Below the pieces are notes generated by a model, which saw nothing but the letters and a program-made list of their open reading frames with translations, was not told where the DNA came from and did not search any database. Of a DNA stretch of 64,000 nt, positions 11,919 through 44,276 are shown piece after piece; within the stretch, counting starts at the first letter, position 1, and each line of letters starts with the position of its first letter. Origin of the DNA: Streptomyces silaceus (lineage in GTDB: Bacteria > Actinomycetota > Actinomycetes > Streptomycetales > Streptomycetaceae); contig NZ_LIRJ01000034.1 of assembly GCF_001419745.1 (NCBI RefSeq), positions 62,001 to 126,000 of the forward strand, written 5' to 3'. A program made the position numbers and the translations under genes.

Positions 11919-12051
11919 GCCCCCATGCAACCCGATGGGTCGGACATTAGGCGAACGAGCCCGCGAGGCTGTGGATAACTCTTGGCGTGGCCCTGACCGA
12001 GGTTATCCACAGGGTCAACCGGAATCTTGTGATCCGCGGGAGAGTCGGCGC

Positions 12052-13884: not shown

Positions 13885-14100
13885 GTACGCCGCTCGGGTG
13901 GTGGGCCAGATGGGTGGCAAGGCCGCTGCCGGGCCTGGCACGACTGGTCGGTTGGCTCCACGTGTTCGGCTTCCTGCCGCAAGGGCGTGACTTGGGACAG
14001 GGGCGCTCCGTTCACCTGAGTGGCGGTACCCGTGGCCGGGTCGCGCCACCGCACCACTTTCGACCTTCCGTAGCGCAGACAACGCAGAAGAAGCCGCCCC

Positions 14101-16164
14101 ATGTCCCTTCCTGCTCCGTCTCCCGTCTCCGACAGAGAGGGGCCCCGGCGCATCGTGCAGGCCCCCGTGCACCAGCCAGGCGGGCCGACACCGGCTCCGG
14201 TGTCGCGTCCTCCCGCAGAGCTCCCACCGGCGCATGCCGTCCTCATGTGTGTCGCCCTGCCCGCCCTCGCGATCTCCACGGACCAAGGGCAGTTGACCGG
14301 TCGCGGACTGGAGGGCTTCTACCGCTCGGGGCGCCGGATCCTGTCCCGCTGCCAGCTGCGCGTGGCGGGACGCGAGCCGACCGCGGTGCAGGCCCGCATG
14401 CTCTCCGCGGACAGCGCCCGGTTCGTTGCGACGCTCCGCCTCTCCACGGACGGCGGCCCCGATCCGGAAGTCGTCGTCGAGCGGATCCGATACGCGGACG
14501 GCACCGAGCGGATCGCCCTGCACAGCGCGTCCGCGCGCCCCCTGCGACTGCCCGTCGAGATGTCGCTCGGCACGGACCTGGCCGAGGTGGGCCTGGTCGC
14601 GTCCGGCAGGGCCGGGCCCGAACTGCCCGCCAGCGTGCACGACTCCGGTATGCGCTGGTCCTCCGCCACGGCCCACTGCGTGGTCACGGCCGACCCCGCC
14701 CCCGAGGACGCCCTGGCGTCCGCCGGCCTGCTGCGCTGGGAGATCGACCTGCCGCCGGGGGCCTCACGGACCGTGGAGCTGCGGGTGCGTCCCGAAGGCG
14801 GCGGGCCGATTCGCGCGGCGGGACACAGCGCGCTGCGCTCCGCCGCCACGGCACGGGCCGTCGGCGACGACCCCCGGGTCCAGCCGCTCCTCGACCGGTC
14901 CGTCGAGGATCTGCAGGCGTTGCTGTTGCGCGACCCCGAGCACCCGACCGACACGTACCTGGCCGCGGGGGCACCGTGGCGCTGCGGGCTGGCACCGGCG
15001 GAGGCGCTGGCCGCCGCCCGTATGGCGCTGCCCCTTGGTACGCGCCTCGCGGCCGGAACACTGCGCACGCTCGCCCGGAGCCAACTCGCGGGACCCGGGC
15101 CGAAGTCGGGCATGATCCCGGGGCCGCTGCGGGACGCGGGACCGTATCTGCCGCCCGGTTGCACAGGTACGGAGGCGACCCTGCTCTTCCCGGTGCTTCT
15201 CGCGGAGGCGTGGCGTTGGGGGCTCCCTGGGCAGGAGGTGGCGCAGCTGCTGCCCACGGCGGAGCGCTGCCTGCGGTGGCTGTGCTCGGCGGTCGACGAC
15301 GGCGTGTTCCTGGTGGACGCGGCCCATCCGCGTGGCCCCGCGCGTTGCGAGGTCCAGGCGCACGCGCACCGGGCCGCGCTGCTCGGTGCCGATCTGCTCG
15401 ATGCCCACGGCCATGGGGACTCCCTCGGCCTGCGGCAGTGGGCGGGGCGGCTGCGGTCCGCGTTCCGGGAGGCTTTCTGGGCGGAGGACCGGGCGGGTGG
15501 GAGGCCTGCCGCCGCCCGCCTGGCCGACGGACGGCTCGTGCCTCATCTCGCGGGCGGAGCGGCTCACCTCTTGGACACGGGTCTGCTGGGGTCCGGCACG
15601 CTCGCCCCCGGGTTGCTCGACAAGGTGCAGACCGAGCAGCTGGCCAGGTTGCTCGGGGGGCCTGCGATGGACACCGGCTGGGGTCTGCGGAGCTTGGGGG
15701 CGAAGGAGGCCGCCTACAACCCGTTCGGACATCGCGGCGGGGCGGTCCGGGTCCATGAGACGGCGGTCGCCGTCGCCGGTCTGGCGGCGGCCGGGTACGA
15801 GAAGGAGGCGAGCTCGCTGCTGCGCGGCTTGCTGGCGGCGGCCGAGTCCTTCGGCCACCGGCTGCCCGAGATGTACGCGGGGGAGCAGCGGACGGAGGGC
15901 GGTGCCCCGCTGCCGCACCCGGCCGCATGCCGACCCGCGGCCACTGCCGCGGCCGCCGGGGTGCACGTCCTCACGGCACTCGCCGGGATCCGGCCGGACG
16001 CGCCGGCCGGGACGGTGACGTTGCGCCCGGTCCGCAGCGCCCCGCTCGGGGAGCTGGGACTGACCGCGCTCAGCGTCGCCGGTGCCCCCTTCTCCGTACG
16101 CGTGAGCCGGCTGGGCCTGGCCATGGTGGAGGAGGCGGCCGACGGGCTGCAGTTGGGCGTGTGA
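14101..16164 (+). CDS. Glycogen debranching enzyme N-terminal domain protein (amylo-alpha-1,6-glucosidase-like)
   Basis: A 687-residue protein. Residues about 55-240 form a beta-rich N-terminal domain of the glycogen-debranching type. Residues about 270-660 look like an (alpha/alpha)6 barrel of the GH63/GH133 type, with blocks such as VQAHAHRAALLGADLL, FWAEDR, and LRSLGAKEAAYNPFGHRGG followed by VHETAVAVAGLAAAG. The family trims alpha-1,6 branches or related glucosides. The exact substrate is not determined and the catalytic acids were not mapped. Start ATG 14101 is 216 bases after the DUF4192 gene. No glycogen genes are next to it. Confidence 0.78.
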   Translation: MSLPAPSPVSDREGPRRIVQAPVHQPGGPTPAPVSRPPAELPPAHAVLMCVALPALAISTDQGQLTGRGLEGFYRSGRRILSRCQLRVAGREPTAVQARMLSADSARFVATLRLSTDGGPDPEVVVERIRYADGTERIALHSASARPLRLPVEMSLGTDLAEVGLVASGRAGPELPASVHDSGMRWSSATAHCVVTADPAPEDALASAGLLRWEIDLPPGASRTVELRVRPEGGGPIRAAGHSALRSAATARAVGDDPRVQPLLDRSVEDLQALLLRDPEHPTDTYLAAGAPWRCGLAPAEALAAARMALPLGTRLAAGTLRTLARSQLAGPGPKSGMIPGPLRDAGPYLPPGCTGTEATLLFPVLLAEAWRWGLPGQEVAQLLPTAERCLRWLCSAVDDGVFLVDAAHPRGPARCEVQAHAHRAALLGADLLDAHGHGDSLGLRQWAGRLRSAFREAFWAEDRAGGRPAAARLADGRLVPHLAGGAAHLLDTGLLGSGTLAPGLLDKVQTEQLARLLGGPAMDTGWGLRSLGAKEAAYNPFGHRGGAVRVHETAVAVAGLAAAGYEKEASSLLRGLLAAAESFGHRLPEMYAGEQRTEGGAPLPHPAACRPAATAAAAGVHVLTALAGIRPDAPAGTVTLRPVRSAPLGELGLTALSVAGAPFSVRVSRLGLAMVEEAADGLQLGV

Positions 16165-16255
16165 TCCGGCCGCAGCCGGATCGGTGGCGCGCCATGGGGC
16201 GGACACGTGTGTCCGGTGAACCGGACCGGGAAGCAATGGGCGAAGGAGATGTTTA

Positions 16256-16270
16256 TCGTCAGGCAGACGA
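16256..16270. promoter_or_regulatory. Candidate NrtR-type operator (inverted repeat)
   Basis: TCGTC-AGGCA-GACGA lies 13 bases before ATG 16284 and inside a T-rich patch that is unusual for this sequence. Its position immediately before an NrtR-like regulator suggests autoregulation. Confidence 0.45.
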
Positions 16271-16283
16271 CTATGATCGCGGC

Positions 16284-17045
16284 ATGTCGCCCTACGACCC
16301 GTCGGCCTTCCCGCCCTTCGCTGTCACTGTCGACCTGGTCGTGCTGACCGTGCGCCGTCACGCGCTCTGCGCGCTGGCGGTTCGGCGCGGTGAGCAGCCG
16401 TTCCAGGGGCGTTGGGCGCTGCCGGGGGGATTCGTACGACAGGACGAGGACCTGTCGGCGGCGGCTGCGCGCGAGCTGATCGAGGAGACGGGGCTCTGCG
16501 CCCATGATCCCGACGGGCCGGTCCAGGCCAATGGGGCACACCTCGAACAGCTCGCCACGTACGGCGACCCCAAGCGCGATCCGCGCATGCGGGTGGTCAG
16601 CGTGGCGCACCTCGCGCTCGCTCCCGACCTGCCCGCTCCCCGGGCCGGCGGCGACGCGCACAGTGCGCGCTGGGCGCCGGTCGAGGCGCTGCTCCAGCAG
16701 GGGGGCTATGGACGCGAGGGCGAGCAGGCGGCTCCGCTCGCCTTCGACCACGCGCAGATCCTCGCGGACGGTGTGGAGCGCGCTCGTTCCAAGATCGAGT
16801 ACTCGTCGCTGGCCACGGCCTTCTGCCCGCCGGAGTTCACCGTCGGCGAGTTGCGACGGGTGTACGAGGCGGTCTGGGGCGTCGTCCTCGACCCGCGCAA
16901 CTTCCATCGCAAGGTGACCGGCACGCCCGGGTTCCTCGTGCCCACCGGCGGGACGACGACCCGGCAGGGCGGGCGCCCCGCGCAGCTCTTCCGTGCGGGT
17001 GGGGCGACGCTCCTCAACCCGCCGATGCTGCGTCCCGAGATCTGA
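16284..17045 (+). CDS. NrtR-like Nudix transcriptional regulator
   Basis: A 253-residue protein with two parts. Residues about 10-150 are a Nudix domain with an intact Nudix box (GFVRQDE then RELIEETGL). The C-terminal ~80 residues form a winged helix (FTVGELRRVYEAVWG, then RNFHRKVTGTPGFLV). This architecture is that of NrtR, which senses ADP-ribose or related NAD metabolites and represses NAD or ADP-ribose genes. The intact Nudix box means hydrolase activity is possible. ATG 16284 is used; an in-frame ATG at 16236 would place the palindrome inside the gene. Neither has a strong ribosome site. Confidence 0.85.
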   Translation: MSPYDPSAFPPFAVTVDLVVLTVRRHALCALAVRRGEQPFQGRWALPGGFVRQDEDLSAAAARELIEETGLCAHDPDGPVQANGAHLEQLATYGDPKRDPRMRVVSVAHLALAPDLPAPRAGGDAHSARWAPVEALLQQGGYGREGEQAAPLAFDHAQILADGVERARSKIEYSSLATAFCPPEFTVGELRRVYEAVWGVVLDPRNFHRKVTGTPGFLVPTGGTTTRQGGRPAQLFRAGGATLLNPPMLRPEI

Positions 17046-17233
17046 CGCCCGGGTTCGGCGTCACCTGCCGCTCCTGCCGTTCCGTGCTGGCTGTCGGACA
17101 CCCGTGGCTCATGCCCTGCCCGAAAAGCCGGAAATGTCGCGTTATCTTGCTGAAGTACCCACGGGGTTCGTCCGTCCCGAACCGGCGGACTGATCCCGGC
17201 CGCCGAGCGGTCGCACGTCCTGCGAGAGAAGCG

Positions 17234-19210
17234 ATGATCCAGGCCATCGGACTGACCAGCAATCCCCGTCAGGAGCTCCCGCCCGCCGTCGACGACGTGT
17301 CCTTCGAGGCACGCACCGGCCGTGTCACCGCGCTGCTCGGTGCGGAGGCAGCCGGCAAGACCACGGCACTGCGGCTGATGCTCGAACTTCAACAGGGCCG
17401 TGGAATCACGTACTTCAGAGGCCGCCCGCTGCACCGCATCGCCCAACCGACGCGTGAAGTCGGCGTTCTTCTGGGCGATGTCCCAGGGCATCCCGCGCGC
17501 TCGGTGCGCGGTCACCTGCGCATGCTCTGCGCGGCCGCTGGAGTGCCCGTCCAGCGCGCCGACGACGTCCTGGAGGCCGTCGGTCTCGTCAGCCTCAGAG
17601 ATCAGCGCCTCGGCACCCTCTCGCGCGGCATGGACCGCCGCCTGGGGCTGGGCTGCGCGCTGGTCGCCGATCCGCACACGCTCGTCCTGGACGGGCCCGC
17701 CGAGGGGCTCTCGGCGCGGGAGGGTGCGTGGCTGCACGGAATCCTGCGGGCTCACGCGGGCCAGGGCGGCACGGTGCTCTTCACCACGGCCGACCCCAAG
17801 GAAGCCGCCCGGACCGCCGACCGCGTCGTGACGCTGGAGGCAGGGCGGCTCGTCGCGGATCAAGAGGTCGCGGACTTCGCGCGCACCAGGCTGCGGCCCC
17901 GTGTCGCCGTCCGGAGCCCGCACGCCGTCCGCCTGGGCGCCCTCCTCGCCAAGGAGGCGCGCGCGGGGCAGCGCTCGATCGAAGTGGTCAAGGAGGACGG
18001 CAACCGGCTTTCCGTGTACGGCAGTAACTGTGCCGACGTTGGGGAGGCCGCGTATCGGCACAGCATCCTCGTGCACCAACTCGCCGATGAGGTCGGCGAT
18101 GCGGGACCGCCTGAGCGGCCGGAGACGGCCGAGCCCGCCGCGCGGGGGGAACGGGCGGAACCCTGCCCGCCCGAGGCTCAGGCCACAACCTCGACCGAAG
18201 GCTTGGGGGAGGCCGCGACTGACCGCGCAACGGCACGCGACGCAGAAGAGCAAGCGGACAGCACAGCAGAAGGGCAGGTCGAAGCAGCGCGGTCCCTGCT
18301 GGTCCCGCTGGCTCCGCTGGAGGCCGACGACACCATTCCGTTCGAGGGCGATGCCGTGCGCGTCACCGGGGCTCCTCCGGCGCGGCCCGCTCCTCGGGAC
18401 GCGGTCTCGTCCTTGCCGCCTCCCATCACCGTCCGCCCGAGCCGCAGCCCGCTTCGCCCGCTGCGCTACGAACTGCGTCGCCTGCTGGGTGTCGGCACCG
18501 GCTACCTGGCCTTGGCCGCCGTCCTCGCCACCTCCGCCCTGATCTGCGTCTTCCTGGCGCGGGCCGGCCACACGCCGCAGCCGCGCCTTCTCGCCGCCTG
18601 GCCCCAGGAGCTCCCGCTGCCACCCGCGGCCCTCGGTGCCGGACTGCTCGGCGCCCTCGCGTTCGGCGACGAGTTCCGCCATCCCGCCCTCGCCGCGGAC
18701 CGGGGAACGGTGCCCCGGCGCCTCGGTCTGCTCGCCGCCAAGCTGCTGGTCGCCGCCGCCACGGCGCTGCTGCTCGGCAGCCTCGCGGTGGCCTCCGACG
18801 CGGCGCTGCTCCACCTTGTATACGGAAACGAGCTCACGAGAGTTCCCGCCGACTGGTTGTCGCTCAGTGCGAGTTGGGGTGCTCTGGTGACGGGTTGTGC
18901 GTGGGCGGGCGTCCTCGCCGCGGGTGTCTTCAGGTCCACGACCGCCGGTCTTGCCGCTGTCCTCGCGGTGCCGATCATCGTCGTACCCGTCGTACAAAAG
19001 GCCGTCGAAGGACCGTCTGTGCGATCGGCCGCCGGACTTCCGGGGCGGTTGAGGGACCTCGCTCTGGTGCAGTGGCCGTTCGGAGCGGAGCGATATCTGG
19101 CGGCGGGAGTCCGCATGATCGCCCAACCCGTGGGCGGTGCGCTGATGTTGTCGCTGACCGCTCTGCTCTGCGCATATCTGCTCATGGCGATGCGCACGAG
19201 AGTCCGTTGA
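17234..19210 (+). CDS. ABC transporter ATPase fused to membrane domain, degenerate nucleotide-binding site
   Basis: 658 residues. Residues 1-225 form an ABC ATPase domain with intact Walker A GAEAAGKT (36-43). The signature is LSRGM (129-133) instead of LSGGQ, the Walker B is followed by Gly154 in place of the catalytic glutamate (LVLDGP), and the H-loop histidine is replaced (TTAD, 184-187). A charged linker spans about 300-400, then about six membrane segments to the C-terminus (YLALAAVLATSALICVFLA onward). The start has GAGAG upstream. It may bind ATP with little hydrolysis. It lies upstream of whiH in the same direction; the substrate is unknown. Confidence 0.8.
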   Translation: MIQAIGLTSNPRQELPPAVDDVSFEARTGRVTALLGAEAAGKTTALRLMLELQQGRGITYFRGRPLHRIAQPTREVGVLLGDVPGHPARSVRGHLRMLCAAAGVPVQRADDVLEAVGLVSLRDQRLGTLSRGMDRRLGLGCALVADPHTLVLDGPAEGLSAREGAWLHGILRAHAGQGGTVLFTTADPKEAARTADRVVTLEAGRLVADQEVADFARTRLRPRVAVRSPHAVRLGALLAKEARAGQRSIEVVKEDGNRLSVYGSNCADVGEAAYRHSILVHQLADEVGDAGPPERPETAEPAARGERAEPCPPEAQATTSTEGLGEAATDRATARDAEEQADSTAEGQVEAARSLLVPLAPLEADDTIPFEGDAVRVTGAPPARPAPRDAVSSLPPPITVRPSRSPLRPLRYELRRLLGVGTGYLALAAVLATSALICVFLARAGHTPQPRLLAAWPQELPLPPAALGAGLLGALAFGDEFRHPALAADRGTVPRRLGLLAAKLLVAAATALLLGSLAVASDAALLHLVYGNELTRVPADWLSLSASWGALVTGCAWAGVLAAGVFRSTTAGLAAVLAVPIIVVPVVQKAVEGPSVRSAAGLPGRLRDLALVQWPFGAERYLAAGVRMIAQPVGGALMLSLTALLCAYLLMAMRTRVR

Positions 19211-19257
19211 CGACCGTCCGTCGCCTTCCGGTGCGGGCCTGTGCGCAACTCCCCGGA

Positions 19258-19280
19258 TAACGCCCACTTCTTTCCGATAA
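19258..19280 (+). promoter_or_regulatory. Candidate WhiG-type sigma promoter of whiH
   Basis: TCCGATAA at 19273-19280 matches seven of eight bases of the WhiG -10 GCCGATAA. A TAAC at 19258 resembles the -35, but the spacer is 11 rather than the usual 15 or so, so the assignment is tentative. In S. coelicolor whiH is known to depend on sigma-WhiG. Confidence 0.4.
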
Positions 19281-19295
19281 GGCGTCAATTGCGGC

Positions 19296-19313
19296 AGGGT
19301 GAGCGATCACCCT
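19296..19313. promoter_or_regulatory. Candidate WhiH autoregulatory operator
   Basis: Perfect inverted repeat AGGGTGA-GCGA-TCACCCT, located between the putative promoter and the whiH start. The position and symmetry suit a dimeric GntR-family repressor. Confidence 0.5.
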
Positions 19314-19372
19314 TTCGTGTGCTTTTCACCAAAGACCTCAAGGGAGTTGGGGGCAGCGCCGACAACTGATCC

Positions 19373-20260
19373 GTGAGTACCCTTGCGCACACCATGATGA
19401 CCACCGCCCGCTCCGCCGACTCCGGTCTCGCCGGCCCGGGCGGCCTCGACCGATACCCCTACAGCGAGTCCCCTGGCGGCGAGCGCGTCGTCGCTCCCGT
19501 GTGGGACGGCGCCGAGCAGGACCTGGGGCGTGTGGGCCGCCGCACCGCCGGAAGCCGCGGCCGCGGGCTGCACGGCCAACTCGTCCAGCAGCTGGGGCAG
19601 ATGATCGTCTCCGGTGACCTGGGCGCCGACCGCCCGCTGGTCCCCGAGGAGATCGGCCAGCGGTTCGAGGTCTCCCGCACCGTCGTCCGCGAGTCCCTGC
19701 GCGTCCTCGAGGCCAAGGGCCTCGTCAGCGCGCGGCCCAACGTCGGCACGCGCGTGCGTCCCGTCAGCGACTGGAACCTCCTCGACCCGGACATCATCGA
19801 GTGGCGGGCCTTCGGGCCGCAGCGCGACGACCAGCGGCGCGAGCTCGGCGAGCTGCGCTGGATGATCGAGCCGCTCGCCGCCCGCCTCGCCGCGGGGCAC
19901 GGTCGCGAGGAGGTGCAGCAGCGCCTCGCCGACATGGTCGAGATCATGGGGCACGCGCTCGGGCAGGGCGACTCGATCACCTTCTCCCGCGCCGACGCGG
20001 AGTTCCACTCGCTGCTGATCCAGGTCGCGGGCAACCGCATGCTGGAGCACCTGTCCGGCATCGTCTCGGCCGCCCTGCAGGTCTCGGGCGGGCCGATCAC
20101 CGGCTGCGACCGCCCCAGCGAGGCCTCGCTCGCGCACCACTCCCGCATCGTCGACGCCCTCGCGGCGGGTGACGGGACCGCTGCCGAGACCGCCATGCGG
20201 CAGCTGCTCACCGTCCACCCGGAGGTGGAGCGCGTCGTGCCCGCCCCGCGCGAGCACTGA
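19373..20260 (+). CDS. whiH: GntR/FadR-family sporulation regulator WhiH
   Basis: 295 residues from GTG 19373; an ATG at 19394 is an alternative, and neither has a clear ribosome site. A 60-residue Ala/Gly/Arg-rich leader precedes the GntR winged helix (about 65-130), seen as GQLVQQLGQMIVSGDLG and FEVSRTVVRESLRVLEAKG. An FCD-type effector domain (about 150-285) follows, with WMIEPLAARLAAGHG and FHSLLIQVAGN. Position directly upstream of hrdB and family match identify it as WhiH, needed for sporulation septation in aerial hyphae. Identity rests on recognition of synteny and family, not on an alignment. Confidence 0.82.
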   Translation: MSTLAHTMMTTARSADSGLAGPGGLDRYPYSESPGGERVVAPVWDGAEQDLGRVGRRTAGSRGRGLHGQLVQQLGQMIVSGDLGADRPLVPEEIGQRFEVSRTVVRESLRVLEAKGLVSARPNVGTRVRPVSDWNLLDPDIIEWRAFGPQRDDQRRELGELRWMIEPLAARLAAGHGREEVQQRLADMVEIMGHALGQGDSITFSRADAEFHSLLIQVAGNRMLEHLSGIVSAALQVSGGPITGCDRPSEASLAHHSRIVDALAAGDGTAAETAMRQLLTVHPEVERVVPAPREH

Positions 20261-20740
20261 CCGCGCGGCCGCACCGCCGCCGCCGGTGCGCGCGTGGCGT
20301 GCGGTACCGCGACGTCGTCGCGTGCGTCGCTCCGTACGCCGTTCGACGGTTCTGCCGTCGTGTCCAGTCACTCCGTGTCGTCGGACCGCAGCGGGCTCCT
20401 CGGGGGCTCCGCGCGGTCCGAGGCACGGAGTGAGGGTTGCTTCGCCGGGTATCGGGGGATCATTCGTGCATGCGCATAGGTCGCTTGTGACCGTATCTGG
20501 ATGCTTTTGAGTACTTACGGGGTGTGACTCGGGCCACGTAGATTGGGCGTAACGCTCCAAGGAACAGCGCGATGACCTAAGAGGTGATAGCCGAGGAGGG
20601 AATACAGCAGTCGTTCGCGGCGCTGTGTAGCTCCCCGGCCCCGCCCGCGCCGTCGGCCCAATCCCCAGCCGCCGGTCGTCGGCTCCGGTCCACAATGGAC
20701 GGGGCCGGAAGCCGTTTTCCAACGTTCCGAGAGGTTGTTC
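20261..20740 (+). promoter_or_regulatory. hrdB upstream regulatory region
   Basis: 480 bases without a gene. Candidate promoter elements include TAGATT (20539-20544), with TTACGG 18 bases upstream as a weak -35. A GGGAAT at 20598-20603 resembles a sigma-R -35, but the expected GTT at the right spacing is not clear. The ribosome site GAGAGG lies at 20729-20734. The long leader fits a heavily regulated gene. Confidence 0.35.
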
Positions 20741-22279
20741 GTGTCGGCCAGCACATCCCGTACGCTCCCGCCGGAGATCGCCGAATCCGTCTCTGTCATG
20801 GCGCTCATCGAGCGGGGAAAGGCTGATGGGCAGATCGCCGGCGATGACGTGCGTCGTGCCTTCGAAGCTGACCAGATTCCGGCCACTCAGTGGAAGAACG
20901 TTCTGCGCAGCCTCAACCAGATCCTCGAGGAAGAGGGTGTGACGCTGATGGTCAGTGCCGCGGAGCCAAAGCGCCCCCGCAAGAGCGTCGCAGCGAAGAG
21001 CCCGGCCAAGCGCACCGCGACCAGGACGGTCGCGGCCAAGACCGTCACGGCGAAGCCCACCGCCACCGCCGCCACTGAGGCGCCGACCGCGGACGGCGCC
21101 GCCGAGGACGCGCCCGCGAAGAAGGTCGCCGCCAAGAAGACGACGGCCAAGAAGGCCGTCGCGAAGAAGACCACCGCCAAGAAGACGGCGGCCAAGAAGA
21201 CCTCCGCCAAGAAGGACGCCGACGAGCTCCTGGACGACGAGGCCACCGAGGAAGCACCCACCGCCGGCAAGCCCGGCGAGGGCGAGCCCGCCGAGGAGGG
21301 CGCCCAGGGCTTCGTGCTCTCCGACGAGGACGAGGACGACGCGCCGGCCCAGCAGGTCGCCGCGGCCGGCGCCACCGCCGACCCGGTCAAGGACTACCTC
21401 AAGCAGATCGGCAAGGTCCCGCTGCTCAACGCCGAGCAGGAGGTCGAGCTCGCCAAGCGCATCGAGGCCGGTCTGTTCGCCGAGGACAAGCTGGCCAACG
21501 CCGACAAGCTCGCGCCGAAGCTCAAGCGTGAGCTGGAGATCATCGCCGAGGACGGCCGCCGCGCCAAGAACCACCTTCTGGAGGCCAACCTCCGTCTGGT
21601 GGTCTCCCTGGCCAAGCGCTACACCGGCCGCGGCATGCTCTTCCTGGACCTCATCCAGGAGGGCAACCTCGGTCTGATCCGTGCGGTCGAGAAGTTCGAC
21701 TACACCAAGGGCTACAAGTTCTCCACGTACGCCACCTGGTGGATCCGTCAGGCGATCACCCGCGCCATGGCCGACCAGGCCCGCACCATCCGTATCCCGG
21801 TGCACATGGTCGAGGTCATCAACAAGCTCGCGCGCGTGCAGCGCCAGATGCTCCAGGACCTGGGCCGTGAGCCCACTCCGGAGGAGCTGGCCAAGGAACT
21901 CGACATGACCCCGGAGAAGGTCATCGAGGTCCAGAAGTACGGCCGTGAGCCGATCTCCCTCCACACCCCCCTGGGTGAGGACGGCGACAGCGAGTTCGGT
22001 GACCTCATCGAGGACTCCGAGGCGGTCGTGCCGGCCGACGCGGTCAGCTTCACGCTCCTCCAGGAGCAGCTGCACTCCGTCCTGGACACCCTGTCCGAGC
22101 GTGAGGCGGGCGTGGTCTCCATGCGCTTCGGCCTCACGGACGGCCAGCCCAAGACCCTCGACGAGATCGGCAAGGTCTACGGAGTGACGCGTGAGCGCAT
22201 CCGTCAGATCGAGTCGAAGACGATGTCGAAGCTGCGTCACCCGTCGCGTTCGCAGGTTCTGCGCGACTACCTCGACTAG
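20741..22279 (+). CDS. hrdB: Principal RNA polymerase sigma factor HrdB
   Basis: 512 residues from GTG 20741, which has GAGAGG six bases upstream. Region 1.1 is at the N-terminus ([18 protein letters not shown]). Residues about 75-200 are low-complexity: an Ala/Lys tract with repeated AKKT units near 126-162, then an acidic segment. Region 1.2 starts at [16 protein letters not shown]. Region 2 includes [17 protein letters not shown] and [17 protein letters not shown]. Region 4.2 is [19 protein letters not shown]. It directs RNA polymerase to housekeeping promoters and is essential in Streptomyces. A strong hairpin terminator follows. Confidence 0.97.
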
Positions 22280-36491: not shown

Positions 36492-37682
36492 ATGCCGATC
36501 AATGGCTCCGCCGCCACCCCCACCGAGCCCGTCCAGGTCCCACGAGGACTCGCGGGCGTCGTCGTCACCGAGACCGAACTCGGCGACGTCCGGGGATACG
36601 AGGGCTTCTACCACTACCGCCAGTACTCGGCCGTCGAGCTCGCCCAGAGCCGCAGCTTCGAGGACGTATGGCATCTGATGTTCCACGGCGGGCTGCCGGA
36701 CGCCGGGCGGAGCGCCGCCTTCGCCGCGCGGTCCGCGCGGCTGCGGCATCTGCCCGACGAGGTGCGCGACGCGCTGCCCGCCATCGCGCGCGCCAGTGTG
36801 CTGTCGGGGCCGCTCTCCGGGCTGCGCACGGCCCTGTCGCTCTTCGGGGCGTCGAAGGGCTTCCGTCCGGTGTACGACATCGACGACGACCGGCGCCGCG
36901 AGGACGCGCTCGCCGCGTCCGCCGTGGTGCCGACGCTGCTCACCGCGCTGTACCGGCTCGGCCAGGGCCTCGACCCCGTCGAGCCGCGCGACGACCTGTC
37001 GTACGCCGCCAACTACCTGTACATGTTGACCGGTTCGGAGCCGGACGCCGCGCGTGCGCGGGCGATCGAGCAGTACTTGATCTCGACCATTGACCACGGG
37101 TTCAACGCGTCAACGTTCACTGCGCGGGTCATCACCTCGACGGGCGCGGACGTGGCGGGCTGTCTGGTGGGTGCGGTCGGCGCGCTGTCGGGTCCGCTGC
37201 ACGGCGGGGCGCCGAGCCGGGCCCTGGACACGCTCGACGCGATCGGTACGCCCGAGCGCATCGACGGCTGGATCCGGGAGCGCGTCCTGGCGGGCGACCG
37301 CATCATGGGCTTCGGGCACCCCGTCTACCGCACCGAGGACCCGCGGTCGCGCATGCTGCGGGACATCGCCCGGCGGTTCGGCGGCGACATGGTGGAGTTC
37401 GCGGTCGAGGTCGAGGGGCGCGTCGAGGCGATCCTGGCGGAGCTGAAGCCGGGGCGGGAGCTGCACACGAACGTGGAGTTCTACGCCGGCGTGGTCATGG
37501 AGCTGTGCGGTCTGCCGCGCGAGATGTTCACGCCGACGTTCGCCTCGGCGCGGGTGGTCGGCTGGAGCGCCAACATCCTGGAACAGGCGCGGGATTCGAA
37601 GATCATTCGTCCGGCGGCGCGGTACGTGGGGGCGGCGGCGCCGGTTCCGGTACCGCCTGGGGCGGTGTCGCAAGAGGTCTGA
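36492..37682 (+). CDS. Citrate synthase
   Basis: 396 residues from ATG 36492, with GGAGGAAG and GAGGAAG upstream. The substrate-binding histidines are present: His202 in IDHGFNAST, His237 in GPLHGGAPS and His276 in GFGHPVYRTEDPR. The usual catalytic aspartate of the NVDFYSG motif is replaced by glutamate here (NVEFYAG, Glu329), which could lower activity or change specificity. It is divergent from the HTH-containing citrate synthase. The role is TCA-cycle or methylcitrate-cycle entry. The gene ends in a tandem repeat and a hairpin terminator. Confidence 0.9.
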   Translation: MPINGSAATPTEPVQVPRGLAGVVVTETELGDVRGYEGFYHYRQYSAVELAQSRSFEDVWHLMFHGGLPDAGRSAAFAARSARLRHLPDEVRDALPAIARASVLSGPLSGLRTALSLFGASKGFRPVYDIDDDRRREDALAASAVVPTLLTALYRLGQGLDPVEPRDDLSYAANYLYMLTGSEPDAARARAIEQYLISTIDHGFNASTFTARVITSTGADVAGCLVGAVGALSGPLHGGAPSRALDTLDAIGTPERIDGWIRERVLAGDRIMGFGHPVYRTEDPRSRMLRDIARRFGGDMVEFAVEVEGRVEAILAELKPGRELHTNVEFYAGVVMELCGLPREMFTPTFASARVVGWSANILEQARDSKIIRPAARYVGAAAPVPVPPGAVSQEV

Positions 37683-37790
37683 CGGCCTGCGGGGGGGGGA
37701 GAGAGAGAGAGCCGACAGCCTGCGGGACAGGTCTGACGCCAGGCGGGAGAGGTCTGACGGCAGGCAGGCGAGGTTCGAACAGCGGGCGGG
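37673..37790. repeat. Degenerate ~20-22 bp tandem repeat starting in the citrate synthase stop region
   Basis: Four to five diverged copies of AGAGGTCTGACGGC(C/A)(T/G)GCGGG. The first copy includes the stop codon at 37680-37682. It is interrupted by a (GA)n run at 37700-37710. Confidence 0.65.
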
Positions 37791-37818
37791 CCTGGCCCCT
37801 CGTGAGGTGGCCAGGCCC
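37788..37818 (+). terminator. Citrate synthase terminator
   Basis: GGGCCTGGCC/GGCCAGGCCC arms with an inner CCTC/GAGG stem and a one-base bulge, 105 bases after the stop codon. Confidence 0.7.
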
Positions 37819-37888
37819 TGGTGGTGGATATGTCGAGCTCCAGATCGCCCGCGCGAGGCGGCGTGCTTGCCGGAGGGTGACTCATCGG

Positions 37889-38134
37889 TCAGACATCAGG
37901 GATGTCGATCTTGGCGCGAAGTAGCGTCTCGCGGGTGATGACCACGATCCGTTCTTCACTCGAACGCCCGGCGTCGGACGGGAGCTTGCTGTCAAGTGCG
38001 GCTGTCCTGTCGGCTCCGATGACAGCGAAAGAGCCATCACTGAGCTCAAAGATGTCGGGGCACGTATTGCCGTCGAGGCTGCCGCGCTGACGAGGGGAGG
38101 CGCCGATGCGGCGGGTGATGTCTGGTGTCGTCAC
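37889..38134 (-). CDS. Small conserved protein of unknown function, cassette copy 2
   Basis: GTG 38134 gives 81 residues; an earlier GTG at 38239 would give 116, and no start has a strong ribosome site. It is a close paralogue of the product encoded on the same strand at 39414-39079. Shared blocks are RRIGASPRQRGSL, CPDIFELSDGSFAVIG, LPSDA, and a C-terminal ERIVV(I/V)TRETL(L/I)RAK(I/A)DIPD. It has no membrane segment, one cysteine, and is probably a small alpha/beta protein. It lies directly after a DUF6082 gene, as does its paralogue. I recognise this as a recurring Streptomyces small-protein family without known function. Confidence 0.7.
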   Translation of the reverse strand: MTTPDITRRIGASPRQRGSLDGNTCPDIFELSDGSFAVIGADRTAALDSKLPSDAGRSSEERIVVITRETLLRAKIDIPDV

Positions 38135-38268
38135 GAGCGGTAGGTTCCCATCTGTCGAGGGCGCGATTTCGCCAATATCACCCAAGAGGACAGGCGAGAA
38201 TGAGCCAACCTGCGCTCTGATGTGCCGACAGGCGGGCACGTCTGCGGGCCGTCGCCGGAGGAAGGCCC

Positions 38269-38973
38269 TCAGGAGGCGCCGGGCGGCGCGGCCGGAGGGG
38301 GCGCGGCCGGGCGAGGCGCGGCCGGAGGAGGCGGGGTCGGCTCCACGAAGTACGCGGTGGACGGCACGGGCGGCCCCGTGGACACGGCGGCGGCGTACGC
38401 CTCGTCGGCGATCCGCACGAAACGGCAGAGCCGGCGGTCGGCGCCCGACTCCGTGAGCCGGTGCCAGGACGGTGCGCTGTTCGCCCAGTAGGCGCGGCCG
38501 ACCTCGCCGCGGAAGTAGTCCAGCAGCGTGGACCGGATCGTGGGCTCGTCGCACAGGTTCAGCTTGAAGTCGGTGCTCCACATGCTGACGATCAGGTTGC
38601 TCACGAGGAGCTGGCGCCAACGCTCCTGTGTGACCGGCGTGTTGGGCGGCTCCCAGCAGACCAGGAACGCGGGGTCGTTCAAGGTGAGCAGGGTGAGCTC
38701 GCGGTGCGCGGACCGGTGGGCCTCTTCGTGCTGTATGCGGGTCTGTCGCGCTTGGTGCGCGATGGAGAGCACGATGCCCACCAGGGCGGCGGCGGAGAAG
38801 ATCGCGGACAGGGCGCCGTACGTCTGGCTGATGTCGCTGAGGCGGTTCCAGTCCATCCCGTGCGGCGCGAGGCCGTCGAGAAGGAAGGGAGTCGCGGAGA
38901 TGGCGGCGAGCGAGGCCAGGGCCGCGCCGCTCCATATCGCCGCGCCGCGGGACCTGCTGCTGGGTGGTGTCAC
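38269..38973 (-). CDS. DUF6082-type membrane protein, cassette copy 2
   Basis: 234 residues from GTG 38973, with GGAGGA upstream. Two membrane helices at about residues 12-30 and 52-70 are followed by a cytosolic domain with a DPAFLVCWEP motif, LVSNLIVSMWS and LLDYFRGEVGRAYWANS. The C-terminus is a Pro/Ala tail. The cytosolic domain aligns by eye with the product at 40081-39521 (EDPALAAVL, LFANALYTNALL, LRGTLQNPIFREYWEA). The function of DUF6082 is unknown. The gene is paired with a small paralogous protein immediately downstream. Confidence 0.75.
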   Translation of the reverse strand: MTPPSSRSRGAAIWSGAALASLAAISATPFLLDGLAPHGMDWNRLSDISQTYGALSAIFSAAALVGIVLSIAHQARQTRIQHEEAHRSAHRELTLLTLNDPAFLVCWEPPNTPVTQERWRQLLVSNLIVSMWSTDFKLNLCDEPTIRSTLLDYFRGEVGRAYWANSAPSWHRLTESGADRRLCRFVRIADEAYAAAVSTGPPVPSTAYFVEPTPPPPAAPRPAAPPPAAPPGAS

Positions 38974-39033
38974 GGTGTGCCTCCTCCGGCCACGCCATGG
39001 GCGTAGCCGCCCTGTTCGTCGCTGGAAGGCGCA

Positions 39034-39062
39034 CTGCGGTACGGACGGCGTCCGTACCGCAG
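39034..39062. terminator. Hairpin between the two DUF6082 cassettes
   Basis: Perfect 13-base arms CTGCGGTACGGAC/GTCCGTACCGCAG with a 3-base loop, 16 bases after the stop of the first small-protein gene on the minus strand. It could end or attenuate transcription between the cassette copies. Confidence 0.7.
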
Positions 39063-39078
39063 AACGGTCACTGCATTG

Positions 39079-39414
39079 CTAGCTGTCGGGAATGTCGGCC
39101 TTGGCCCGGATCAACGTTTCTCGGGTGACGACGACGATGCGTTCGTAGTCGGCTCGTGCGGCGTCGGACGGCAGCTCTGGTTCCAGCAGCTCGGTCTGAT
39201 CTGTGCCGATGACGGCGAAGCTGCCGTCGGACAACTCGAAGACGTCGGGGCAGTTCTGCCCGGAGAGGCTGCCCCGTTGACGGGGGGACGCACCGATGCG
39301 GCGCACGATCTTCAAAGGGATCCCGGTCCTGTGAATGCAGCGGATGGGTCGGCGGAAGGGTACTGGTGACGTGAGGGGATATTCCGCTGATGCAGCGACA
39401 AAAGTCGGATTCAC
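39079..39414 (-). CDS. Small conserved protein of unknown function, cassette copy 1
   Basis: 111 residues if GTG 39414 is used. The conserved core (RRIGASPRQRGSL to the C-terminal DIPDS) is only about the last 80 residues, so a shorter start such as a TTG near 39324 is possible. It is the paralogue of the product at 38134-37889: identical at most positions of CPD(V/I)FELSDGSFAVIG and ERIVVVTRETLIRAK. It follows the upstream DUF6082 gene by 106 bases and ends at a strong hairpin. Function is unknown. Confidence 0.65.
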   Translation of the reverse strand: MNPTFVAASAEYPLTSPVPFRRPIRCIHRTGIPLKIVRRIGASPRQRGSLSGQNCPDVFELSDGSFAVIGTDQTELLEPELPSDAARADYERIVVVTRETLIRAKADIPDS

Positions 39415-39520
39415 AGGAGAACTACATCCACTCGTGATGCCTCGGCTCCGCCTGTGACGTCTCGGCCCCGCGCACCGGCCCGGCCGGCTGTTCCGTCGTA
39501 CCGGGCGATGACCTCGTCCG

Positions 39521-40081
39521 TCATTCCGGTGGCGTGCCTACGACCCACCATTCCTCTGTGTCGGCCTCGTCCAGGTCGTGGACCAACTCGTCGACCATCC
39601 TGCCTATTCGGGCCTCGACGGAGTCCTCTCCGAGGCTTGCCCGGGCAGGCCTCGTGGCCTCCCAGTACTCGCGGAAGATGGGGTTCTGGAGTGTCCCGCG
39701 CAGGTGGCCGAAGAGCTCCGCCCGGCTGACGTTGCCGATGCGGTAGGCCAGCAGGGCGTTGGTGTAGAGGGCGTTGGCGAAGAGGAACTGGCGGTGCTTC
39801 GCGGGCGGGACGGAACCCTCGTAGGTGTCGAGCACGGCGGCCAGCGCGGGATCCTCCATCGCCTTGCTCAACAGTTCCCACTGGAGGCGCTGCTGGTTGG
39901 CGAGGTCGATGTGCCGCTGCTGTTCGCTCCGGTCCGTCTGCTCGTATCGGTAGATCCGCAGCCGCAACTTCTTGAGCTGGTGTTGCTGGTTGATGAGGGC
40001 ACCGACGGTGCCCACGGTCAAGGCCAGGCCCGCCGCCGCGGCAGGGCCCACCCCCCGTGTCCAACAGTTCTGTGTGGCCAT
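39521..40081 (-). CDS. DUF6082-type membrane protein, cassette copy 1
   Basis: ATG 40081 is preceded by a GGGGG site and gives 186 residues; the longer open frame up to 40246 looks non-coding. One membrane helix (about residues 13-32, AAAAGLALTVGTVGALI) is followed by a Gln/Arg-rich helical segment, then the DUF6082 core. The C-terminus is acidic (DELVHDLDEADTEEWW). The family is frequent and often multi-copy in Streptomyces, and its role is not known. Together with the next gene it forms cassette copy 1. Confidence 0.75.
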   Translation of the reverse strand: MATQNCWTRGVGPAAAAGLALTVGTVGALINQQHQLKKLRLRIYRYEQTDRSEQQRHIDLANQQRLQWELLSKAMEDPALAAVLDTYEGSVPPAKHRQFLFANALYTNALLAYRIGNVSRAELFGHLRGTLQNPIFREYWEATRPARASLGEDSVEARIGRMVDELVHDLDEADTEEWWVVGTPPE

Positions 40082-40397
40082 GTCAACCCCCGAATCGGCG
40101 ACCGTCCGCCGGTCGTCGGGCGCGGGTCGACAGGGAGCGGACCGGCGAGCGGTGGGCGGTGCGCTTGCCGCCTCCCAGGGTGCCGAGCGGCTCTGATCGG
40201 CGGGGGAGGCGGAGAGGAGGCGCACGGAAGGAAGCGGCGGTCGCACATCCCGGCGCCGTGCCAGATGTGTGCCCCGCGAGCGCCGCTAACAATCGTTCAC
40301 TTCGTGGCCCGACTACGCACACCTATCCTGGGGCGGTCTTCCATCGTCGTACGGGATCCGCCCGGTTTCCGTACGAATGTCGGCACGAGAGGTCCAC
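40082..40397. other. Intergenic region between cassette and CobW gene
   Basis: 316 bases without a gene, separating divergent genes. A possible rightward -10 TATCCT lies at 40324-40329 with a weak -35. No clear operator or Zur-type palindrome was seen. Confidence 0.4.
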
Positions 40398-41603
40398 GTG
40401 AACAAGCAGCAGATCCCGGTCGTCGTCCTCGCCGGCTTCCTGGGTTCTGGCAAGACGACCCTGCTCAACCATCTGCTGCACCGCAGCGGCGGCACCCGGA
40501 TCGGTGCGATCGTCAACGACTTCGGGTCCATCGAGATCGACGCCATGTCGGTCGCGGGGCAGCTCGGCGACTCGACCGTCTCCCTGGGCAACGGCTGTCT
40601 CTGCTGTGCCGTGGACGCGAGCGAACTCGACGAGTACCTGGAGCGGCTCGCCCGGCCCGCCGCCGGGATCGACGTCATCGTCATCGAGGCGAGCGGGCTC
40701 GCCGAGCCGCAGGAGCTCGTGAAGATGCTGCTCGCCAGCGAGAACGCGCACATCGTCTACGGAGGGCTCGTCGAGGTCGTCGACGCCGCCGAGTTCGACA
40801 CCACCAGGGAGCGGCACCCCGAGCTGGACCGGCATCTGGGCATCGCCGATCTCGTCGTGGTCAACAAGGCCGACCGGGTGGCCCCGGCGGAGTACGAGCG
40901 GGTTCTCGGGGTGGTCGCCGGGCTGACGGACCGGGCGGCCGTGGTGCCCGCCTCGTACGGGCGCGTGGACGTGGAGATGATCCTCGACCGCAAGCCCGTG
41001 GGGGAGCGGATCGGGCAGTTGTCGTTCGAGGACCTGCGTGAGGACGGTGGCGCGGGTGAGGGGGAGGACGAGGACGGTGGGAGCGGCCGCGGCTCTTGCG
41101 ATCACCCGCACTGCGAGGGCAGCCACGACGCGCACTCCGAAGGCAGCCACGGACACCCGCACTCCGGAGGTGGCCACGGCCACCTGCACTCCGCCTACGA
41201 AAGCCTCTCCTTCACCTCCGAAGCGCCCCTGGGCCCCCGCCCCTTGATGGCCTTCCTGGACAGCAGGCCCGAGGGGCTCTACCGCATCAAGGGGTACGTC
41301 GACTTCGGCCCGGCCGACCCGAAGAACCGGTACGAGGTGCACGCCGTCGGGCGGTTCCTGCGCTTCTATCCGGAGCCCTGGGGTCCGGGCGAGCCGCGGC
41401 TGACGCAGCTCGTGCTCATCGGGGCGGGCATCGACGTACCCGCCCTGGAGAAGGGGCTCCAGGCCTGTCGTGAGAACGCCCCACAGGCCGATGAGCACGG
41501 CATGTGGGGCGTCCTGCGGTACGTCCAGGAGGTCCAGGAGGTCCAGGAGGTCCAGGAGGTCCAGGAGGTCCAAGAACTCCAGGACCTTCAGCCGGAGGAC
41601 TGA
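40398..41603 (+). CDS. CobW/G3E-family GTPase (metal chaperone type)
   Basis: GTG 40398 follows GAGAGG and gives 401 residues; an ATG at 40377 is an alternative. The P-loop is GFLGSGKTT, the zinc-binding CLCC lies at about residues 68-71, and the guanine-specificity motif is NKAD. A His-rich stretch (about residues 235-260, with HPH, HSEGSHGH and HGHLH) is a likely metal-binding loop. The CobW C-terminal domain follows. The protein ends with a run of Val-Gln-Glu repeats. The family delivers zinc, cobalt or other metals to target enzymes. Its 3' end is only five bases from the convergent parC stop. Confidence 0.9.
   Translation: MNKQQIPVVVLAGFLGSGKTTLLNHLLHRSGGTRIGAIVNDFGSIEIDAMSVAGQLGDSTVSLGNGCLCCAVDASELDEYLERLARPAAGIDVIVIEASGLAEPQELVKMLLASENAHIVYGGLVEVVDAAEFDTTRERHPELDRHLGIADLVVVNKADRVAPAEYERVLGVVAGLTDRAAVVPASYGRVDVEMILDRKPVGERIGQLSFEDLREDGGAGEGEDEDGGSGRGSCDHPHCEGSHDAHSEGSHGHPHSGGGHGHLHSAYESLSFTSEAPLGPRPLMAFLDSRPEGLYRIKGYVDFGPADPKNRYEVHAVGRFLRFYPEPWGPGEPRLTQLVLIGAGIDVPALEKGLQACRENAPQADEHGMWGVLRYVQEVQEVQEVQEVQEVQELQDLQPED
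41523..41585 (+). repeat. 9-bp tandem repeat coding Val-Gln-Glu
   Basis: Five perfect GTCCAGGAG units followed by two to three degenerate ones, at the extreme 3' end of the CobW gene. It adds a charged helical tail of variable-length type. Confidence 0.9.
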
Positions 41604-41608
41604 GCCGG

Positions 41609-44062
41609 CTACACCGGACCCGCCACCGCCGCCACCGGCTTCTTGAGGGAGACGCCCGAGCCGTCACGGCGCGGGTCGACCTCCGGGAGCTCGGCCGGCG
41701 TGCCGTTGCGCTGCGCCGCGTGCGGCGGCGTCGGGCCCGCCCAGGCGAAGCTCAGACAGTCCTCGCCCTTCAGGAACCGCTGGACCCGCACACCACCGGT
41801 GGCACGCCCCTTGCGCGGGTACTGGTCGAACGGCGTGAGCTTGGCGGTCGTCTGCACCGAGTCGTCCAGCGTGCCGCGCGAGCCCGCCACCGTGAAGACG
41901 ACCCCGTCCGTCGCCGGGTCCACCGCGGTGAAGGAGATGACCTTCGCGCCGTCGGCGAGCTTGATGCCCGCCATGCCGCCCGCCGGACGGCCCTGCGGGC
42001 GTACCTGCGAGGCCTGATAGCGCAGCAGCTGGGCGTCGTCCGTGATGAAGACGAGGTCCTCCTCGCCGGTGCGCAGCTCGGCCGCGCCGACGATCCGGTC
42101 GCCGTCCTTGAGGGTGATGACCTCCAACTCCTCCTTGTTGGACGGATAGTCGGGGACCACGCGCTTGACGACGCCCTGCGCGGTGCCGAGCGCGAGCCCC
42201 GGGGACGACTCGTCGAGCGTCATCAGACAGATCAGCGTCTCGTCGCCCTCCAGGGAGAGCAGCTCCGAAACGGGTGCCCCTCCGGAGAGGTTGGGCGCGC
42301 CCGCCGTCTCCGGGAGCTGCGGAAGGTCCACTACGGAGAGGCGCAGCAGCCGTCCCTCGGAGGTGACCGCGCCGACCTCGCCGCGCGCCGTCGCCGGCAC
42401 CGCGGAGACGATCACGTCGTGCTTGACGCGCTTGGTGTCGCCGTCGGCGAAGGGCTCGCCGTTCGCCGTGCGGGCCAGCAGGCCCGTCGAGGACAGGAGC
42501 ACCCGGCACGGGTCGTCCGCGACCTGGAGGGGGACCGCGGTGGCCGCGGTGCCGGAGGACTCCAGGAGCACCGTGCGCCGGTCGGTGCCGAACTTCTTCG
42601 CCACGGCGGCCAGTTCGGAGGAGACCAGCTTGCGCAGCTCGGCGTCCGACTCCAGGATGCCGGTCAGCTCGTCGATCTCGCCGTTGAGCTTGTCGCGCTC
42701 GGACTCCAGCTCGATGCGGTCGTACTTGGTCAGACGGCGCAGCGGGGTGTCCAGGATGTACTGCGTCTGGACGTCGCTCAGCGAGAAGCGCTCCATCAGG
42801 CGCTCCTTGGCCTGCGCGGAGTTCTCGCTGGAGCGGATGAGGCGGATGACCTCGTCGATGTCCAGGAGGGCGACCAGGAGGCCCTCGACCAGGTGCAAGC
42901 GGTCGCGCTTCTTGCCCCGGCGGAACTCGCTGCGGCGGCGCACCACGTTGAACCGGTGGTCGAGGTAGACCTCCAGGAGCTCCTTGAGGCCGAGCGTCAG
43001 GGGCTGGCCGTCCACCAGTGCCACATTGTTGATGCCGAAGGACTCCTCCATCGGCGTCAGCTTGTAGAGCTGCTCCAGGACGGCCTCGGGGACGAAGCCG
43101 TTCTTGATCTCGATGACCAGGCGCAGGCCGTGCGCGCGGTCGGTGAGGTCCTTGACGTCGGCGATGCCCTGCAGCTTCTTCGAGCCGACCAGGTCCTTGA
43201 TCTTGGAGATGACCTTCTCGGGGCCGACCGTGAAGGGCAGTTCGGTGACGACGAGGCCCTTGCGGCGCGGCGTCACGTTCTCCACGGAGACCGTGGCGCG
43301 GGTCTTGAAGGTGCCGCGGCCCGATTCGTACGCGTCCCTGATGCCGCTCAGGCCGACGATCCGGCCGCCCGTGGGCAGGTCGGGGCCCGGCACGAACTTC
43401 ATCAGCGTCTCGAGGTCGGCCCCCGGGTGCTTGATGAGGTGGCGGGCGGCGGCGATGACCTCGCCGAGGTTGTGCGGCGCCATGTTCGTCGCCATGCCGA
43501 CCGCGATGCCCGACGAGCCGTTCACCAGGAGGTTCGGGTACGCGGCCGGGAGGGCGGACGGCTCCATCTCCTGGCCGTCGTAGTTCGGCGTGAAGTCGAC
43601 CGTGTCCTCGTCGATCGACTCCGTCATCAGGGAGGTGGCGTCGGCCATCCGGCACTCGGTGTACCGCATGGCGGCCGGCGGGTCGTCGTTGCCCAGCGAG
43701 CCGAAGTTGCCGTGGCCGTCGACCATCGGCAGGCGCATGGAGAAGGGCTGGGCCATACGGACCAGCGCGTCGTAGATCGACGCGTCGCCGTGGGGGTGCA
43801 ACTTACCCATGACCTCGCCGACGACGCGGGCACACTTCACGTAGCCGCGGTCGGGGCGCAGGCCCATCTCGTTCATCTGGTACACGATCCGGCGCTGCAC
43901 GGGCTTCATGCCGTCGCGCGCGTCCGGCAGGGCACGGGAGTAGATGACCGAATACGCGTACTCGAGGAAGGAGCCCTGCATCTCGTCGACGACGTCGATG
44001 TCGAGGATCTTCTCCTCGTACGAGTCGTCGGGCGGCGGGGTCTTCGTGCTGCGGCGGGCCAT
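41609..44062 (-). CDS. parC: DNA topoisomerase IV subunit A
   Basis: 817 residues from ATG 44062, which has GAAGGAG ten bases upstream. The breakage-reunion domain has [29 protein letters not shown] and the active-site tyrosine in MRYTECRMA (about residue 124). A coiled-coil and hinge follow, then a shortened C-terminal beta-pinwheel region with repeats such as [16 protein letters not shown]. No clear GyrA-box (QRRGGKG) is seen, which supports ParC rather than GyrA. It pairs with ParE at 24193 to decatenate chromosomes. It converges on the CobW gene with almost no spacer. Confidence 0.92.
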
Positions 44063-44276
44063 CGCTGCTGCGGCTCCTTCACCAGGCAAGTGCGGGATCT
44101 GACGCCGACCATTGTGGACCGTCCCACTGACAACGCCGACCACGACCCGTGCCACGGCGCTGTCACCCGCGACTACGCCGAGGGCGGACCGGGAACTTCG
44201 TCAGGTGTCAGCACGCTTGCATACAGTGGCAGGACTGGCAGGAAAGTTCTGAAAAGCAGCGATCGAAGGGACGTAC

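Follow-up and report, generated by a model that had tools for sequence, protein, structure and literature searches.

On the evidence of sequence comparison, two neighbouring minus-strand genes of Streptomyces silaceus, here termed DUF6082-A and small A, are a genuine unit: they are linked across relatives in several genomic contexts, their sequences co-vary, and a conserved leader precedes DUF6082-A. They lie in a stretch of 64,000 nucleotides (assembly GCF_001419745.1, contig NZ_LIRJ01000034.1, positions 62,001 to 126,000) that is called the window and supplies the coordinates used below. A sequence-only reading of the window had called four minus-strand genes, and all four stand, at 40081-39521, 39315-39079, 38973-38269 and 38134-37889, with start codons inferred. 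In this order they are DUF6082-A (186 amino acids; PF19560, expectation value (E) 2e-56, 190.5 bits), small A (78 amino acids, inferred TTG start), DUF6082-B (234 amino acids, inferred GTG start; PF19560, E 1.7e-36, 125.7 bits) and small B (81 amino acids, inferred GTG start). Both DUF6082 proteins pass the curated PF19560 cut-off of 26.7 bits by far. Small A belongs to a family with the pattern CPD..DG..AVIG..ERIVV..TRETL, which is common in the genus (63 of 150 Streptomyces genomes) yet matched by no Pfam or NCBIfam model, neither small A nor small B giving a hit at E 1. Searches of this genome located two small and two DUF6082 genes, and all four are those of the window locus.

Linkage of the two genes across Streptomyces

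The 150 genomes yielded 101 small-family matches, 65 of which have at least 55% identity to small A and are termed branch 1; genes are called near when they lie within 2.5 kb. A DUF6082 gene is near 63 of the 65 branch-1 small genes, upstream on the same strand in 53, downstream on the same strand in 4 and convergent in 6. The two exceptions are L262, where no DUF6082 was found, and L263, which is near a contig edge and has a DUF6082 remnant. The expectation that the small gene keeps DUF6082 as its neighbour thus holds for branch 1; it does not hold for a second branch, which adjoins DUF6879 (see below), nor for the more distant matches at large, of which 7 of 36 are near a DUF6082. Seen from the other gene, 74 of 113 DUF6082 matches have a small gene near and 39, some of them fragments, do not. 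Most of the orphan DUF6082s that were retrieved belong to a lineage other than that of DUF6082-A. Orphans have no common neighbour: among 130 proteins encoded within 2.2 kb at 25 loci, cut to 350 amino acids, the commonest family accounts for 4. DUF6082 as told apart here splits into two lineages, one small-linked and mostly with the leader and the C-terminal WW tail described below, the other orphan and mostly without both. In four loci (L053 and L180 from the same genome, L070 and L190), the DUF6082 match is split or has an internal stop and the adjoining small gene is intact.

Similar counts were obtained from 80 named loci, which are the best matches and hence biased to one locus. In 79 of them the stretch retrieved includes a DUF6082 gene, which in 76 precedes the small gene on the same strand; the gap exceeds 500 bases in 3 of the 79, reaching 2947 bases in L178, between positions 2069 and 5004 of that locus. 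The best named small-family matches come from Streptomyces in 79 cases and from Kitasatospora in one. DUF6082 was detected in 69 of the 150 Streptomyces genomes. Across the phylum, the small family was found in 6 of 396 genomes, all six Streptomyces, and DUF6082 in 9 of 396, the one non-Streptomyces case being a weak match below the cut-off; these searches scored few candidates per genome (14 for the small family, at most 9 for DUF6082), so that weak matches may be missed. Weak small-family matches in genomes G023 and G031 were left out of the locus comparison.

The pair occupies at least four genomic contexts, in both relative orientations. In locus 1, that of the window, it lies between the parC/cobW and the citrate synthase genes. 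The window flanks are a citrate synthase gene here named citA (36492..37682, plus strand; PF00285, E 1.1e-107; SCO5832 by position), a CobW-type GTPase gene, cobW (40377..41603, plus strand; PF02492, E 1.5e-44; SCO5835 by position), and the topoisomerase IV/gyrase subunit A gene parC (41609..44155, minus strand; PF00521, E 1.8e-152; SCO5836 by position), and these three are the conserved flanks of the pair across relatives' loci. In locus 2, the pair lies between an HxlR regulator and a 2-oxoacid:ferredoxin oxidoreductase (korAB), which we take to be specific for 2-oxoglutarate. Other branch-1 homes are beside a histidine kinase (L121, L122) and beside TerD (L264), and more distant small genes are paired with DUF6082 beside MetRS/pectate lyase genes (L113), beside an Exo_endo_phos gene (L275) and in L274.

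Co-variation and inheritance of the pair

We compared the evolutionary distances of the two genes with those of their neighbours. Among 29 locus-1 loci, small and DUF6082 distances correlate with r 0.71, and the partial correlation given citA, cobW and parC is 0.68 (0 of 1000 permutations). Controls on adjacent genes gave 0.14 for small-citA (28/1000) and 0.12 for DUF6082-cobW (45/1000). These values are from the final partial-correlation test; the co-variation test run together with the tail comparison used 31 locus-1 loci.

The block had been described as sitting between core genes like an insertion. In agreement with this, 19 of 30 fetched citA loci are empty, with citA beside cobW and no pair; 9 carry the pair or its small gene, and of the remaining two L238 has a DUF6082 remnant and L239 no cobW in reach. 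Against it, on a citA tree built from 53 loci, 33 of which carry the pair, the presence of the pair needs 4 changes, compared with a mean of 16.2 in shuffled data (0 of 500 as low). Because the changes are so few, the pair at the citA-cobW site is mostly vertically inherited rather than recently inserted.

A conserved leader upstream of DUF6082-A

DUF6082-A is directly preceded by a conserved non-coding leader of about 215 nucleotides (40082..40294, minus strand), in which covariance model R1 spans 40098-40262. A 26-base core of this leader, allowing up to 6 mismatches, is present in 42 of 44 locus-1 pair loci and in none of the 19 empty citA loci. In a profile search of 243 sequences, the leader was found in 9 of 13 locus-2 pair loci, in none of the 24 orphan loci, and in neither L251, L252 and L279 nor any branch-2 locus; at E 1e-3 the profile gave no match at L113, L121, L122, L264, L274 or L275. 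The covariance model, applied to 62 of about 300 loci plus the window, added L271 (E 0.0012) and L276 (E 0.021); both have the leader between DUF6082 and a small gene that lies upstream. When the model was applied to 41 whole genomes, 16 matches were obtained at E ≤0.01, 15 of them just upstream of a DUF6082 gene or its remnant (remnants in G009 and G022:C166); here 70 of about 10,000 to 22,000 candidates per genome were scored, with stricter filters, and weak matches may be missed. A borderline match (E 0.007) at G013:C1:562370-562535 is far from that genome's DUF6082 match. Elsewhere in the S. silaceus genome, the next DNA match to the leader is 26 bases long (E 0.003; 40 of 135 candidates scored). 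Rfam 15 gave no match to window positions 37500-40500 up to E 1.

In the leader alignment, 93.8% of the cells of five candidate helices pair and 12 cells show double changes, compared with 2.6 in shuffles (0/500) and a maximum of 7 when the structure is slid; for helix 2 the paired share is only 77.8%. These covariation counts rest on a chosen set, since alignment A5 keeps 33 of 39 thinned rows (L268, L123, L115, L150, L152 and L218 were left out) and has shortened 3' ends in L139, L074, L161, L154, L212 and L144. The covariation term of RNAalifold is small (-0.74), which weighs against an RNA. The stretch could equally hold DNA sites instead, with GAACGATTGTTAGC as a candidate operator. A coding extension was also considered and was rejected, because single-base length changes in the runs of C break the frame.

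Origin of the local double copy

The four window genes had been read as a two-gene cassette duplicated in tandem, and the pair order kept across this duplication had been offered as the reason to believe that the two genes work together. The small genes do share the identical blocks that had been noticed: small A and small B are identical at 56 of 75 residues (75%), with a nonsynonymous rate (dN) of 0.26 and a synonymous rate (dS) of 1.32, indicating purifying selection. The two DUF6082 proteins are identical at 37 of 168 residues (22%) and fall in different clades. In a FastTree tree of 143 DUF6082s, in which long branches were flagged, DUF6082-A is sister to that of S. apricus L160 (100%) among the locus-1 types, and DUF6082-B groups with 5 orphan-type rows in a set of 6 (98% local support). 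DUF6082-B thus belongs to the orphan-type lineage; it has a proline-rich C-terminus and has neither the EWWVVG tail nor the leader. The S. apricus locus, the closest relative found, is arranged as DUF6082-small-small; about 150 bases, without a DUF6082, separate its two small genes. Of these tandem genes, the second is the sister of small B (99% support), and the sister relation of small A and the first was not resolved in the short-protein tree. The protein identities, both trees and the S. apricus locus together led us to reject a duplicated cassette, a tempting reading that is wrong.

A better reading of the double copy is that the small gene was duplicated and that a membrane gene from a different lineage stands between its two copies. 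On the simplest reading, the small gene was duplicated before the split from S. apricus, and DUF6082-B was later inserted here or lost there. Since DUF6082-B is not a duplicate of DUF6082-A, the argument from pair order fails; the case for joint function rests instead on linkage, contexts and co-variation. Tandem small copies are present in L081, L082 and L160.

Predicted structures and the C-terminal tail

The AlphaFold model of DUF6082-A (mean predicted local distance difference test score (pLDDT) 86.6, predicted template-modelling score (pTM) 0.67) has a long helix at residues 13-76, followed by helices up to residue 173. It gave no significant match among PDB chains or in BFVD, an absence that is not proof. 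One hydrophobic segment is present, N-terminal at residues 12-30 (54-72 in DUF6082-B), and DUF6082-A is probably membrane-tethered; basic residues following the segment suggest a cytosolic C-terminal domain. The model of small A has strands at residues 3-7, 24-28 and 33-36 and helices at 41-47 and 65-73 (mean pLDDT 78.3, pTM 0.52). DUF6082-A ends in ...DTEEWWVVG, and the EWWVVG tail is present in 60 of 74 small-linked versus 4 of 19 unlinked DUF6082s, counted on matches above 60 bits; a tree-aware comparison, discussed below, in addition required more than 300 bases (90 rows).

A second branch of the small family adjoins DUF6879

Thirty loci of the second branch were examined (L085-L104, L253-L261 and L249). 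A DUF6879 gene (PF21806) lies directly downstream of the small gene in 26 of them (truncated in L091), and in all 26 the stop of the small gene runs into the likely start of DUF6879; the overlap is 8 bases long in 24 loci and 14 in 2. Genes of an NB-ARC/TPR cluster, four members of which were confirmed with Pfam, lie close to 16 of the first 20 loci. L249 is on a Kitasatospora plasmid that carries a branch-2 small gene, and there DUF6879, NB-ARC and TPR are fused in one protein of 1014 amino acids. In two loci (L089, L092), small, DUF6879 and DUF6082 genes stand in one row, bridging both branches. A relic of the DUF6879 start was looked for in branch-1 small genes and was not seen; their penultimate codon is GAC in 48 of 54. 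In five loci (L088, L090, L095, L100 and L104), the NB-ARC/TPR proteins have an N-terminal VYQ..GDQHI motif, and an adjoining small helical gene encodes a similar C-terminal VYQAGRDQHI.

The pair in Streptomyces coelicolor, assigned by position

The stretch from parC to citA in S. violaceoruber (L214) contains cobW, DUF6082 and the small gene. In S. coelicolor, SCO5831 and SCO5832 are adjoining putative citrate synthase genes (PMC12323332) and SCO5836 is parC (PMC3905888). From the S. violaceoruber order and the identities of SCO5832 and SCO5836, SCO5834 should be the DUF6082 gene and SCO5833 the small gene. SCO5834, listed as "hypothetical protein membrane spanning", has log2 values of 1.5, 3.1 and 3.2 in the second mycelium at 24, 48 and 72 h relative to the first mycelium at 16 h (PMC3610822). 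If the positional assignment holds, the DUF6082 gene of the pair would be more than 8-fold up in the second mycelium at 48-72 h. No paper with the words DUF6082 or DUF6879 was found in the literature searched. On the positional assignment, SCO5834, a late-mycelium gene without known role, can be studied together with a defined partner and control region.

A proposed module and its alternatives

We propose that DUF6082-A and small A form a two-protein module for membrane-tethered adaptor signalling, and we give this reading as a whole an even chance. DUF6082 would be anchored by its N-terminal hydrophobic helix, with the helical domain facing the cytosol. The small protein would act as a soluble adaptor: by docking on this domain, perhaps through the acidic EWWVVG tail, it would keep a regulatory or signalling activity at the membrane. 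The second branch of the adaptor family, apparently translationally coupled to DUF6879, sits with or is fused to NB-ARC/TPR sensors, and this coupling suggests that the adaptor swaps partners. The conserved leader would set expression, rising in the late (second) mycelium, in this species as in S. coelicolor. In the window, the ancestral pair would have been extended by a tandem small copy and an other-lineage DUF6082 between the copies. A bolder version, in which small adaptors link NB-ARC/TPR receptors (via DUF6879) with membrane-tethered DUF6082, and in which the DUF6082 branch is a developmental switch under a structured mRNA leader dedicated to one gene, we consider unlikely.

Several observations weigh against the proposed module. 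Co-transfer of the pair as one block could yield the same co-variation, and the convergent pairs and the 2.9-kb gap in L178 speak against a strict operon. A crude hydropathy test detected the N-terminal hydrophobic segment in only 57 of 90 DUF6082s. The small A model is of moderate confidence and matched no solved PDB fold. The EWWVVG tail follows the DUF6082 tree and not adjacency: of 4 independent pairs, on average 0.0 differed in the direction of adjacency, 0.5 in the opposite direction and 3.5 not at all, and because of this, docking at the tail is kept as a guess. The fold of the window leader is not better than that of shuffled sequences (z-score -0.79; 36/200), which leaves the reading as an RNA insecure. 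Finally, SCO5833/SCO5834 were assigned by position from S. violaceoruber, and the literature searched contained no paper naming SCO5833.

Four other explanations were weighed against the module. The sequence-only reading had suggested a toxin/immunity-like pair; in a toxin-immunity or toxin-antitoxin system, DUF6082 would harm the membrane and the small protein neutralise it. A small protein beside a larger, probably membrane-bound one fits this, as do the tandem small copies (L081, L082, L160), and NB-ARC/TPR genes such as those of the second branch are typical of conflict loci. The idea is weakened by the 39 DUF6082 matches, some fragments and most of other lineages, that have no small gene near, by the mostly vertical inheritance, and by scarcity on mobile elements: each protein was matched in 2 of 72,556 plasmid records, and neither in any of 50,697 phage records. 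PADLOC profiles gave no match to the four window proteins at E 0.1, and none of 14 comparable XRE-DUF397 pairs, proposed as toxin-antitoxin systems, is reported to have behaved so (PMC10364602). We therefore regard it as quite improbable. Two old neighbours kept vertically without joint function would explain why pair presence so closely tracks the citA tree; adjacency kept in several unrelated contexts and both orientations, and co-variation far above that of other adjacent genes, make this somewhat less probable again.

Even less credence goes to the idea that the small protein is a diverged member of DUF397 (BldB-like), which would make the pair a version of the XRE-DUF397 regulators of development. 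The sizes are similar, strands and a C-terminal helix are predicted, C-P-D stands where DUF397 has CxE (PMC7159879), and the late expression of SCO5834 would suit such a role. This likeness is one of eye, and homology was rejected when the profile comparison failed: hhalign against DUF397 (PF04149) gave a probability of 1.2% and E 0.042 over 17 columns, the best of ten column shuffles reaching 0.8% and E 0.067, and none of 18 small members had a Pfam match at E 5. An XRE profile built from one sequence detected no XRE gene in the stretches retrieved around the citA and korAB pair loci. Least probable of the four is a module serving central carbon metabolism. Locus 1 lies beside citrate synthase genes and locus 2 beside korAB, and predicted MtrA sites lie near SCO5831/SCO5832 and near the gene of a 2-oxoglutarate oxidoreductase subunit, SCO4595 (PMC12323332), which may be the locus-2 gene; against this, the other homes of the pair are unrelated, and citA without the pair is common (19 of the 30 fetched loci).

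Comparison with known systems

Pfam assigns no function to DUF6082 (PF19560), and the proposed module is best placed by the systems that it resembles in part. DUF6879 with NB-ARC/TPR is related to it as the partner of the small family's second branch, and differs in that it was found neither at the window locus nor at any other citA or korAB pair locus. The set of VYQ..GDQHI-like motifs beside that branch may resemble the pairs of NLR-associated amyloid signalling (BASS), a likeness judged by motif; these motifs were not seen in the window stretch examined. The definition of BASS is that of PMC12261475. The XRE-DUF397/BldB systems share with the pair a small protein beside a partner, the occurrence in Streptomyces and several copies per genome, with 14 DUF397 matches in this genome. 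Homology to them has no sequence support, and the partner here is a probable membrane protein rather than an XRE regulator.

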